Source: Natronococcus occultus SP4 (GTDB lineage Archaea; Halobacteriota; Halobacteria; Halobacteriales; Natrialbaceae). Taken from it: a DNA stretch of 64,000 bases. A model generated the notes under the pieces. The model was not told where the DNA came from. It saw nothing but the letters and a program-made list of their open reading frames with translations, and searched no databases. The DNA is taken from positions 1 to 64,000 of the forward strand of contig NC_019974.1 of the NCBI RefSeq assembly GCF_000328685.1, read 5' to 3'. The stretch's first letter is position 1; every line of letters starts with the position of its first letter. Shown here one piece after another: positions 1,337 to 5,716 of the stretch. Both the position numbers and the translations under genes were made by a program.

Positions 1337-2980
1337 ATGTCAGACGACAACTCAGAGCCGACACGAACCGAGGACGTCGAGACCGACGAGACGGACGGGT
1401 TCTCGACGAGCCTCGAGGAGACGGCGATCGGCGACGAGGAACCGAGCCAGGGACTGTTCGACGACCTCCTCAGCGGGGAACCGATCTTCGAGAACAAGGA
1501 GGTCCTGCGTCCGTCCTACACGCCCCACGAACTCCCCCATCGGACCGACCAGATCAACAAGATGGCGACGATCCTCGTCGCCGCGTTGCGCGGAGAGACG
1601 CCATCGAACATCCTGATCTACGGAAAGACGGGGACCGGGAAGACCGCGAGCGCGAAGTTCGTCAGCAAGGAACTCGAGAGCACCTCCCAGAAGTACAGCG
1701 TCCCCTGTGACGTCGAGTACATCAACTGCGAGGTAACCGACACCCAGTACCGCGTCCTCGCGCAGCTCGCGAACAAGTTCATCGAGAAAAACGAGGCCCG
1801 GATCGATCGGAAGGTCGACGCGCTCGAGGACCGGCTCGAGGCCCTCGAGGAGTACCACGAGGACGGTCGTTCCGAGACGACCGACGGCTCTCCGGACGAC
1901 GCCGATCCGACGGACGACGTTTCGTTTGCGACCGATACCGAGCCGCAGTCTACGGGTTCTCCAGTCGAAACAGAGGGGTCAACCCCCTCTGACGACGACA
2001 CCGGATCGACACACCCGCTCGCGTCCACGCCGTTTTCCGACCGCGAGGCAGTCGAAGACCGGATCGACGCCCTCGAGGAGGACAAGGAGTCGTTCCAGGA
2101 GGTACCGATGACCGGCTGGCCGACCGATCGGGTCTACAGCGTCTTCTTCGACGCCGTCGACTACGACGAGCGGGTCGTCGTCATCATGCTAGACGAGATC
2201 GACAAGCTCGTCGAAAAGAGCGGCGACGACACGCTCTATAACCTCTCGCGGATGAACTCCGAGCTCGAGAACTCCCGGGTGTCGATCATCGGCATCTCGA
2301 ACGATCTCAAGTTCACCGACTTCCTCGATCCCCGCGTCAAATCCAGCCTCGGCGAGGAGGAGATCGTCTTCCCGCCGTACGACGCCAACCAGCTGCGGGA
2401 TATCCTCCAGCACCGGTCTGACGTCGCGTTCAAGGGTGACGCGCTGTCCGAGGACGTGATCCCGCTGTGTGCGGCCTTCGCGGCCCAGGAACACGGTGAC
2501 GCGCGCCGGGCGCTGGATCTGCTGCGGACCGCAGGCGAACTCGCCGAGCGATCTCAGGCCGAGACGATCGTTGAGAAACACGTCCGCCAGGCCCAGGACA
2601 AGATCGAGCTCGACCGGGTCGTCGAAGTCGTTCGGACGCTGCCCACCCAGTCGAAGCTCGTCCTCTTCGCGATCATCTTGCTCGAGAAAAACGGCGTCCA
2701 CAGCATCAACACCGGCGAAGTCTTCAACATCTACAAGCGGCTCTGTGAGGAGATCGACGCCGACGTCCTGACCCAGCGTCGCGTGACCGATCTCATCAGC
2801 GAACTCGACATGCTCGGGATCGTCAACGCGGTCGTCGTCTCGAAGGGACGCTACGGCCGCACCAAGGAGATCAGCCTCTCGGTGCCGATCGACGAGACCG
2901 AGGCAGTCTTGCTGTCTGACTCCCGGCTGAGCAACATCGACGACGTCCAGCCGTTCGTTCAGGCGCGGTTCGAGAACTGA
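1337..2980 (+). CDS. orc1: Orc1/Cdc6 replication initiator
   Basis: AAA+ initiator of 547 residues that binds origin DNA and recruits the MCM helicase. Walker A GKTGTGKT is at residues 96-103 and Walker B VVIMLDEID at 281-289; a winged-helix region follows near the C terminus (around 440-547). The family is usually near 400-500 residues. The extra length is an acidic N-terminal tail and a Ser/Thr/Asp-rich linker at about 173-236, inserted in the AAA+ domain between two charged helical stretches that both contain a D-R-(L/I)-x-A-L-E-E pattern. The ATG at 1337 precedes the acidic tail; a TATA-like AATTTAATAT near 1180 would give a leader of about 130 bases. The origin repeats lie immediately upstream and another ORB lies just after the stop. 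An ORB-like motif is encoded within the linker itself. Confidence 0.96.
   Translation: MSDDNSEPTRTEDVETDETDGFSTSLEETAIGDEEPSQGLFDDLLSGEPIFENKEVLRPSYTPHELPHRTDQINKMATILVAALRGETPSNILIYGKTGTGKTASAKFVSKELESTSQKYSVPCDVEYINCEVTDTQYRVLAQLANKFIEKNEARIDRKVDALEDRLEALEEYHEDGRSETTDGSPDDADPTDDVSFATDTEPQSTGSPVETEGSTPSDDDTGSTHPLASTPFSDREAVEDRIDALEEDKESFQEVPMTGWPTDRVYSVFFDAVDYDERVVVIMLDEIDKLVEKSGDDTLYNLSRMNSELENSRVSIIGISNDLKFTDFLDPRVKSSLGEEEIVFPPYDANQLRDILQHRSDVAFKGDALSEDVIPLCAAFAAQEHGDARRALDLLRTAGELAERSQAETIVEKHVRQAQDKIELDRVVEVVRTLPTQSKLVLFAIILLEKNGVHSINTGEVFNIYKRLCEEIDADVLTQRRVTDLISELDMLGIVNAVVVSKGRYGRTKEISLSVPIDETEAVLLSDSRLSNIDDVQPFVQARFEN
1958..1985 (+). repeat. ORB-like motif inside the orc1 coding sequence
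   Basis: CTCCAGTCGAAACAGAGGGG starts at 1959 and encodes Ser-Pro-Val-Glu-Thr-Glu-Gly (residues 208-214) in the disordered Orc1 linker. It is followed by TCAACCCCCTCT, which pairs with the preceding AGAGGGG to form a small palindrome. The core matches the origin elements at 637 and 2998; binding by Orc1 is inference. Confidence 0.6.
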
Positions 2981-2997: not shown

Positions 2998-3030
2998 CCA
3001 CACCCCAACCCCTCCGTTTCCACTCGAGCG
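2998..3030 (-). repeat. ORB-like element D downstream of orc1
   Basis: The minus strand reads CTCGAGTGGAAACGGAGGGG followed by TTGGGGTG. It lies in the 60-base gap between the orc1 stop and the end of the convergent signal peptidase gene. It is one of the cleanest copies of the motif in the window and suggests that the origin's binding sites flank orc1 on both sides. Confidence 0.7.
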
Positions 3031-3040
3031 ACGCGACCGA

Positions 3041-4027
3041 CTACTGCCGACGCCGTCCCGCGGCCATCGCGGCTCCCGCTCCGGTCGCGGCCAGTCCCGC
3101 CGCGCCCGTGCCGACCGCGCCGACGTTCGACAGCGGTGTCTCGGTTCCGGTCGCGCCCGCGACGGTTTCGAGCCCGGGCTGGGGCGCGAGGACGCCGCCG
3201 AGGATCGAGTCGAACGTGAGCCGGACGTAGCCGAGCCACGGGATTCGGAACGACGCCTTTCCGGTGATCCAGTCGGGCTGGACGACGTCGGTGTTCGCTC
3301 CGCCGCGCTGGTACTGGTCGTAGTAGGGGTTCGCGTCGCCTTTCGTGACGAAGCCGTCGTGGGCGGCCGGGCAGGTCTGGAGCTGATCACAGCTCGCTCC
3401 GTCGACGTACTCCGGTTCGGCCTTGGTGTCGACCCAGTTCTCCCCCTCCTCGACCCAGAAGTGTGCGCGGTGTATCACGGGTGTTTGATGGGCCTGTCCG
3501 TTGGGTTCGAAGACGACGACGTCGCCGGCCATGCCGAACTTCTCGTGGTCCTCGCCGTCCTCGTGAGTGACGACGCCGGTGTCGCCGGTGGCGCCGTCAC
3601 CGACGAACCGGTCGTCGGCGACGACGAAGATGAGGTCGCCGACCTCCATGTTCGGCTCCATGCTCCCGCTCTCGACGGCGACCAGCGGGGGCCAGACGCC
3701 GCTGATTCCGAACAGCAAGAGCCCGATCACCGCGACGATGGCGACGCTGCTCAGGACGTCACGTACCAGCACGACCGAGTCGTCGTCCGTTTTGAAAAAC
3801 CAGCGCACCACGCCGTCGTCCTCGATCGAGACGTCGTCGCTCTCGGAGCCCGATCCGCCGTGTTGAACGACCGATCGGTCGGCTCGGGAGTCGCGGTCGA
3901 CTCCGGGCTGGTCGCTCGCTCCCGACCCCGGTTCGTCGGGTCCGTCCGACCGGGTCTCGCTCGGGTCGTGGCGGTGTGGCTCGCCGGTGTCGTCGGTTCT
4001 CTCGTCGCCGGAATCGGGGCCGCTCAT
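3041..4027 (-). CDS. signal peptidase I (archaeal Sec11-like, S26)
   Basis: Membrane protease of 328 residues that removes Sec signal peptides outside the cytoplasmic membrane. After a hydrophilic acidic N-terminal extension (1-80) comes a membrane segment at about 88-109, then the nucleophile motif ESGSMEPN with Ser122, the VIHR box with His186 (the Ser-His pair of archaeal and ER-type enzymes), and a GDAN box about 50 residues later. A Gly/Ala-rich hydrophobic stretch near the C terminus (about 300-322) with an Arg-rich end suggests a second membrane anchor. The long N-terminal tail is common in haloarchaeal versions. It lies convergent to orc1 and divergent from the DP1 gene, with about 105 bases to the latter. 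Confidence 0.93.
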   Translation of the reverse strand: MSGPDSGDERTDDTGEPHRHDPSETRSDGPDEPGSGASDQPGVDRDSRADRSVVQHGGSGSESDDVSIEDDGVVRWFFKTDDDSVVLVRDVLSSVAIVAVIGLLLFGISGVWPPLVAVESGSMEPNMEVGDLIFVVADDRFVGDGATGDTGVVTHEDGEDHEKFGMAGDVVVFEPNGQAHQTPVIHRAHFWVEEGENWVDTKAEPEYVDGASCDQLQTCPAAHDGFVTKGDANPYYDQYQRGGANTDVVQPDWITGKASFRIPWLGYVRLTFDSILGGVLAPQPGLETVAGATGTETPLSNVGAVGTGAAGLAATGAGAAMAAGRRRQ

Positions 4028-4132: not shown

Positions 4133-5716
4133 GTGCCACTCGAGGGGCCCGCCCGGATCGTCAGCGAACTCACGAGTCGCGGCTACAACGCCGAACGCGA
4201 GGCCGTAACCCGGATCGCGTCGACCGAGGACCCGGCGGCGACCCTCGAACGCGTCCTCGAGGGACTGCCCGACGACGCGCTGGTCGTCCGTGCCGACCAC
4301 GTCGAGTCCGTCCTCGGGACCGAACCGGCCTCCGACGGCGGGCAAACCGCCGAACGGACGAGCGCTCCGACCGACGACACCCCCATTTCAACTGGACCTG
4401 AAAACGCGCTATCGTCTCCGGTGGATGGCGGTACTCCAGTCGAAACGAAGGGGGTTGAGGCGGGGCGTGAAAGTACTGACGACGGAAGCGGTCGGTCCGC
4501 GGATCCGCTCGAGCGCTCGCTCGAGATCGTCGGCGATATGACCGGCGAGAGCACGGGGACCGGCGAGTACGGCGACTTCGTCTCGGTGTTCCGGGATCGG
4601 CTCGAGCGACTCGGCTCGAAGCTCCGCGGGCGAGTCAACCACCGACCCGCGACGGCGATCCAGTCGATGCCCGGAGGCAGCGAAGCCGCGATGGTCGGGC
4701 TGGTCAACGACGTCCGATCGACCGCCAGCGGCCACTGGCTGATCGAGCTCGAGGACGCCACCGGAACCTTTCCGTGGCTCGTAATGAAGGACCGCGAGTA
4801 CGCCGATCTGGTCGACGAGCTCCTCTACGACGAGGTGCTGGCGATGGAGGGAACCCTCGCGGACGACTCGGGGATCGCGTTCGTCGACGCGATGTACTTC
4901 CCCGACGTCCCCCGGACTCACGAGCCCTCGACGGCCGACCGCCACGTGCAGGCGGCGCTGATTAGCGACGTCCACGTCGGTAGCCAGGAGTTCATGAGCG
5001 CGGCCTGGAACCGCTTTGCGGACTGGCTCCACACGCCCCATGCCCAACACGTCGAGTACCTGCTGATCGCGGGCGACATGGTCGAGGGCGTCGGCGTCTA
5101 TCCGAATCAGGACGAGGAGCTCGATATTATCGACATCTACGAGCAGTACGAAGTGTTCAACGAACGCCTGAAGCAGGTTCCCGGCGACATCGAGATCGTC
5201 ATGATTCCTGGCAACCACGACGCGGTGCGGCTCGCTGAGCCCCAGCCCGGCTTCGACGACGAGCTCCGGGAGATCATGTCAGCCCACGACGCTCGGATCG
5301 TCAGCAACCCCTCGACCGTCACGATCGAGGGCGTCTCGGTGCTGATGTACCACGGGGTCAGCCTCGACGAGGTGATCGCCGAACTCCCCGAGAAGAAAGC
5401 GAGCTACGACGATCCCCACCGGGCGATGTACCAGCTGCTGAAAAAGCGCCACGTCGCCCCGCAGTTTGGGGGTCACACCCGGCTCGCGCCCGAGGAAAAA
5501 GATTACCTCATCATGGAGGAGGTGCCAGACATCTTCCACACCGGCCACGTCCACAAGCTCGGCTTCGGGAAGTACCACGACGTCCTCGCGATCAACTCCG
5601 GCTGCTGGCAGGCCCAGACCGACTTCCAGAAGAGCGTCAATATCCAACCTGACGCCGGCTACGCCCCGATCGTCGATCTGGACTCCCTCGACGTAACCGT
5701 CCAGAAGTTCAGCTGA
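4133..5716 (+). CDS. polD1: DNA polymerase D small subunit DP1
   Basis: Small, exonuclease subunit of the archaeal replicative polymerase PolD, 527 residues from the GTG at 4133. The open frame continues upstream, but that part is antisense to the signal peptidase gene and has no family similarity I recognise. An N-terminal helical domain (1-65) is followed by an acidic Ser/Thr linker (66-135), an OB-fold region (about 165-265) and a calcineurin-like phosphoesterase domain. Metal-ligand motifs are DVH at 279-281, GDM at 314-316, GNHD at 360-363, His407 and GHVH at 471-474, so proofreading nuclease activity should be retained. Closeness to the origin and orc1 is common in haloarchaea. The linker DNA contains two ORB-like motifs. 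Its partner DP2 is not in this window. Confidence 0.94.
   Translation: MPLEGPARIVSELTSRGYNAEREAVTRIASTEDPAATLERVLEGLPDDALVVRADHVESVLGTEPASDGGQTAERTSAPTDDTPISTGPENALSSPVDGGTPVETKGVEAGRESTDDGSGRSADPLERSLEIVGDMTGESTGTGEYGDFVSVFRDRLERLGSKLRGRVNHRPATAIQSMPGGSEAAMVGLVNDVRSTASGHWLIELEDATGTFPWLVMKDREYADLVDELLYDEVLAMEGTLADDSGIAFVDAMYFPDVPRTHEPSTADRHVQAALISDVHVGSQEFMSAAWNRFADWLHTPHAQHVEYLLIAGDMVEGVGVYPNQDEELDIIDIYEQYEVFNERLKQVPGDIEIVMIPGNHDAVRLAEPQPGFDDELREIMSAHDARIVSNPSTVTIEGVSVLMYHGVSLDEVIAELPEKKASYDDPHRAMYQLLKKRHVAPQFGGHTRLAPEEKDYLIMEEVPDIFHTGHVHKLGFGKYHDVLAINSGCWQAQTDFQKSVNIQPDAGYAPIVDLDSLDVTVQKFS
4377..4466. repeat. pair of ORB-like motifs inside the DP1 coding sequence
   Basis: At 4377-4399 the minus strand reads CAGGTCCAGTTGAAATGGGG; at 4433 the plus strand reads ACTCCAGTCGAAACGAAGGG with further G tracts to 4466. 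The two point away from each other across about 35 bases. They encode PISTGP (84-89) and TPVETKG (101-107) in the disordered DP1 linker. Sequence match is direct; binding function is inferred. Confidence 0.55.

Follow-up and report, generated by a model that had tools for sequence, protein, structure and literature searches.

The linker of DP1, the small subunit of DNA polymerase D, carries two cores of the origin recognition box (ORB) placed back to back in its coding sequence in Natronococcus occultus SP4, and this segment is very probably a selected Orc1-binding site. The complete reading, in which the DP1 linker is an off-origin Orc1 site whose ORB cores, with heads 40 nt apart, restrain re-initiation, is given a probability of about 0.6. 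From sequence we infer both the binding of Orc1 to the DP1 boxes and their function. The results point to a control site of chromosome replication that is unreported: in the part of the literature that was covered, we found ORBs described neither for polD1 nor for coding DNA in general, and a 2012 survey covered only the intergenic regions flanking orc/cdc6 genes (PMC3528665). The pair represents an unusually clean case of a putative DNA-binding site maintained in coding sequence across a whole class.

The box pair and its surroundings

The window, a stretch of 64,000 nt at the start of contig NC_019974.1, is the oriC1 region of the genome. The left and right oriC1 ORBs are located at 320–337 on the minus strand and at 638–655 on the plus strand, both with an extended G-string. 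The orc1/cdc6 initiator gene of oriC1, orc1 (1337–2980, plus strand; NCBIfam NF001625), is separated by a signal-peptidase gene (3041–4027, minus strand) from polD1 (4133–5716, plus strand; Pfam DNA_pol_E_B), the host gene of the boxes, which starts with GTG at 4133 and matches NCBIfam NF003116, archaeal DNA polymerase II small subunit, with an E value of 1e-295. The DP1 pair is found 3–6 kb from oriC1. The genome contains about 15 clear orc1/cdc6 paralogues, spread over two of its three contigs.

A divergent pair of ORB-like boxes had been described in the DP1 linker by the initial annotation, and its presence was confirmed. The minus-strand box (4378–4395, CCAGTTGAAATGGGGGTG) and the plus-strand box (4436–4453, CCAGTCGAAACGAAGGGG) have their G-runs on the outer sides and code PISTGP and PVETKG, respectively, as claimed. 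The separation given earlier, 35 bases, is also right: the CCA heads are 40 nt apart, or 34 nt if the core takes in the three preceding bases. The spacer between the heads (4396–4435) has 57% G+C in the window and contains no AT-rich unwinding element; across the class its sequence is free and its length nearly fixed.

Scores were obtained with a matrix made from 136 oriC1 ORBs, which themselves score at least 27.7 bits of a possible maximum of 38.8; the training loci partly overlap the test set, but the sites used were those of oriC and not of DP1. With an exact core and 28.7 bits, the plus box falls within the range of oriC1 ORBs (27.7–38.8) and counts as a full ORB core. The minus box scores 5.4 bits in the window, below this range, and is degenerate in other Natronococcus too; its orthologues are intact in many relatives (20–36 bits, some of them 31–36). 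The boxes code residues ~82–88 and ~102–107, inside a segment (residues 64–145) predicted to be disordered by AlphaFold2 in a model of modest overall quality (mean pLDDT 56), which agrees with the earlier view of a linker where the coded peptide is harmless.

Codon choice and conservation

Synonymous codons in the first 160 codons of DP1 were resampled 2000 times per locus according to each gene's own usage. For the gene in the window, the resampled medians were −9.5 bits for the plus box and −24 bits for the minus box, and none of the 2000 resamples reached either observed score; the ORB core is not what codon use alone would be expected to give. The summed best plus and minus score was unmatched by resampling in 80 of 80 loci (p < 1/2000).

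The box is also rare in the genome. With up to one mismatch allowed, ORB cores occur in the 4.31 Mb only at 320(−), 638(+), 1961(+), 3009(−), 4436(+), 88464(+) and 3980518(−), and all seven sites are near oriC1; the last one, provided that the 4,013,216-bp contig is circular, lies 32.7 kb left of the contig's origin end. In 35 Natrialbaceae genomes, exact ORBs number 109; 108 of these are no farther than 160 kb from DP1, and 32, from 22 genomes, sit in DP1 itself. On these distributions we reject a mobile or spreading repeat. A strict divergent-pair pattern was matched in 163 of 391 genomes of the class, a count which includes some pairs located outside DP1, and the reversed-pattern control in none of the 391. 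Strings coding PVETxG number only 11 in the six frames of the whole genome. Five of them match the ORB core with no more than one mismatch, and each of these five belongs either to the oriC1 cluster or to the tRNA-Gln site; the other six are located elsewhere and have no ORB-core match; the peptide is thus not common with unrelated codons.

A fair test of codon choice requires sites located by the peptide alone, blind to the DNA. For VST found in this way, Val is GTT in 84 of 87 cases (background 7%) and Thr is ACT in 84 of 87 (4%), while the following Gly is GGA in 75 of 78 (7%); ordinary codons for VST were used in only three of the 87. In matrix-located boxes, Pro is CCA in 138/138 and Glu is GAA in 144/144, a biased test as these sites were chosen by score. 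PVE peptides from the core of DP1, taken as controls, employ ordinary codons (CCC or CCG for Pro, GAG for Glu), and third codon positions of the boxes vary only where ORBs vary (GTC or GTT). The ORB letters are fixed by synonymous codon choice against a strong codon bias, and comparison of the genes shows selection acting on the DNA letters and the spacing of the DP1 element.

It could be argued that the peptide is selected, with VSTG and PVETKG as short linear motifs of DP1 and the likeness to an ORB incidental, and the codon phase and the peptide of the boxes are indeed identical in all DP1 genes. This is very improbable, as rare synonymous codons are fixed to the ORB letters, third positions are free only where those of ORBs are, the decay of the DNA box in Haloferax is accompanied by peptide change, and the box is present outside coding DNA too. 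An RNA stem-loop in the DP1 mRNA is extremely improbable. Divergent ORBs inherently form an inverted repeat, but the arm match is 0.779 within and 0.772 between genomes (sd 0.005), the predicted fold of the window segment is no better than that of shuffled sequences (z = −0.76), and a single arm is kept in many genomes. One C/T position is the sole exception where the arms match more within than between genomes.

Conservation was surveyed within class Halobacteria using 80 named loci and 100 further genomes of other families, sampled evenly over the class, which gave 173 distinct DP1 genes; a box was counted as present above 14 bits, and the counts are of loci and not of independent events. 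Both boxes were present in 80 genes, the plus box only in 54, the minus box only in 10 and neither in 29, which amounts to 134 plus boxes and 90 minus boxes. Natrialbaceae and Haloarculaceae have mostly kept both boxes, Halorubrum-like genomes (group g33) have the plus box only and have lost the minus box, and in Haloferax the pair is decayed (seen in five loci), with the peptide changed as well. Because the minus box is degenerate or lost in some groups and the pair is decayed in Haloferax, the pair is not essential to all haloarchaea. Most of the class has probably inherited the DP1 ORB element from a common ancestor.

The head spacing of 107 scored pairs is 40 nt in 97, 37 nt in six and 52 nt in four; rare exceptions of +15, +18 and +21 mean that it is nearly, not absolutely, fixed. 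About 12 spacing changes were inferred on the tree. The spacer sequence has a mean nucleotide identity of 40%, the linker upstream of the pair ranges from 28 to 151 amino acids, and the pair shifts along the linker by as much as ~100 codons. Two interpretations had been offered initially. Placement of the boxes for initiator binding is strongly favoured by vertical class-wide conservation, near-fixed spacing and codons that follow ORB tolerance, while the spread of an element into linkers finds no support, since the box is not dispersed and the DP1 copies appear ancestral.

Off-origin ORBs and the extended G-string

Further ORBs surround orc1. One is located at 1305–1322 on the plus strand, 32 nt 5′ of the orc1 start codon; an ORB at about this distance was found in 98 of 145 loci and looks like initiator autoregulation. 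Another (1961–1978, plus strand, 26.7 bits) is coded inside orc1 as SPVETEGS in the same codon phase, and the claim that P-V-E-T-(E/K)-G results in Orc1 as well as in DP1 is thereby borne out. It was found in 28 of 145 loci, nearly all of Natrialbaceae, and is a separate, narrower gain than the DP1 pair. An ORB-like box (3009–3026, minus strand) lies directly 3′ of the orc1 stop codon.

More distant from orc1, an ORB 3′ of tRNA-Gln(CTG) was detected with a strict pattern in 45 of 145 class genomes, typically 5–160 kb from DP1 when on the same contig. In the genome of the window this box is at contig position 3980518 on the minus strand and has full strength (35.3 bits). In some genomes it also occurs as a divergent pair whose gap is shorter, and the tRNA-Gln ORB is still present in three genomes that form group g46 and may be Haloferax. 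The ORB-like box at 88464, which has one mismatch, is intergenic and 5′ of a predicted membrane protein gene (possibly HtpX-like, by eye).

A clear sequence difference divides origin from off-origin ORBs, namely the extended G-string (four or more G in positions 19–23), which is essential for oriC1 activity in Haloarcula hispanica (PMC3936714). At almost all loci the oriC pair has it. Among DP1 boxes it was found after 4 of 119 plus and none of 76 minus boxes; it was present in 0 of 98 orc1-promoter boxes, including that at 1305–1322, in 0 of 28 orc1-coding boxes and in none of the tRNA-Gln boxes read. The plus box of the window continues with GTTGAGG and has no extended G-string.

Proposed restraint of initiation and competing functions

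In the proposed mechanism, the Orc1 of oriC1 would bind the two outward ORB cores in the disordered coding segment of DP1. Because it is only 3–6 kb from oriC1, the site would be duplicated at once after initiation. The DP1 pair, together with the ORBs of the orc1 promoter and tRNA-Gln, would then draw Orc1 into complexes unable to start replication, because these ORBs are without the G-string required at oriC1. With Orc1 drawn away, re-initiation would be restrained, as in oriC2D of Haloarcula or bacterial datA. Restraint of initiation as such, by titration or by a regulatory complex, is a plausible mechanism to which slightly less than an even chance is assigned. An off-origin site finds support in the tRNA-Gln ORB, which is conserved independently of any DP1 peptide need. 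Against pure titration, two boxes are few, oriC2D having 11. Conservation in a replication gene and in the orc1 promoter would also fit transcriptional control.

Such control is the main rival: Orc1 bound in the first 250–430 nt of polD1 would regulate DP1 transcription by road-block or repression and tie the polymerase supply to free initiator. The location early in the coding region of a replication gene and the conserved ORB that orc1 has 32 nt 5′ of its own start speak for it; nevertheless, a like site is found downstream of tRNA-Gln, and a linker position that shifts by up to ~100 codons is odd for a promoter-linked operator. We consider transcriptional control unlikely, though to be taken seriously. 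That another protein of the same specificity uses the boxes, be it a paralogue of Orc1 or some nucleoid protein, is improbable; many orc1/cdc6 paralogues are available in the genome, but the matrix was derived from oriC1 ORBs, and origins are each specific to the cdc6 located with them (PMC3936714). The outward polarity that the DP1 pair shares with the oriC1 ORB pair would suit an auxiliary origin or a site of helicase loading, yet such a role is quite improbable because the heads, only 40 nt apart, enclose no unwinding element and the boxes have no extended G-string.

Among known systems, the haloarchaeal oriC1 pair of Orc1/Cdc6A boxes has the same 18-nt core and the same outward polarity as the DP1 pair, but the DP1 boxes lie in coding DNA and are 40 nt instead of ~200–340 nt apart, in addition to the missing unwinding element and G-string. 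In Haloarcula hispanica, oriC2 is under the negative control of oriC2D, an ORB-rich region 3′ of cdc6E that probably acts by titration (PMC3936714). OriC2D resembles the DP1 pair in having ORBs outside the origin, on the initiator-gene side, and is a proposed initiator sink; it is intergenic, with 11 ORBs over 722 bp, and is part of a different origin, whereas the DP1 pair consists of two boxes with near-fixed spacing in a gene and is conserved in the class (PMC3936714). Viewed as a titration site, the DP1 pair offers conserved boxes outside the origin but, with two boxes, no high box density. Bacterial datA and DnaA-box clusters also present conserved initiator boxes outside the origin. The comparison with datA is one of working principle only, as the initiator, the boxes and the domain of life differ, and the nucleotide-hydrolysis role of datA has no evident parallel in the DP1 pair.

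The DP1 site and the G-string difference offer concrete, testable handles on how initiation is restrained in archaea. Tentatively, a class-wide control system with two kinds of ORB may be envisaged, in which G-string ORBs license initiation and off-origin ORBs build non-initiating Orc1 complexes of defined geometry, as an archaeal counterpart of datA placed partly in coding DNA. If this is true, the off-origin ORBs would be the pair in the polD1 linker, the ORB in the tRNA-Gln flank, and those in the promoter and coding sequence of orc1. The near-fixed spacing of the DP1 pair suggests that two Orc1 molecules touch or bind cooperatively. The spacings observed (37, 40 and 52 nt, rarely 55, 58 and 61) are suggestive of a helical-phase constraint, which we do not claim from only ~12 inferred changes. 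In some relatives, two divergent ORBs separated by 30 nt were seen 2–3 kb 5′ of DP1, probably within orc1.
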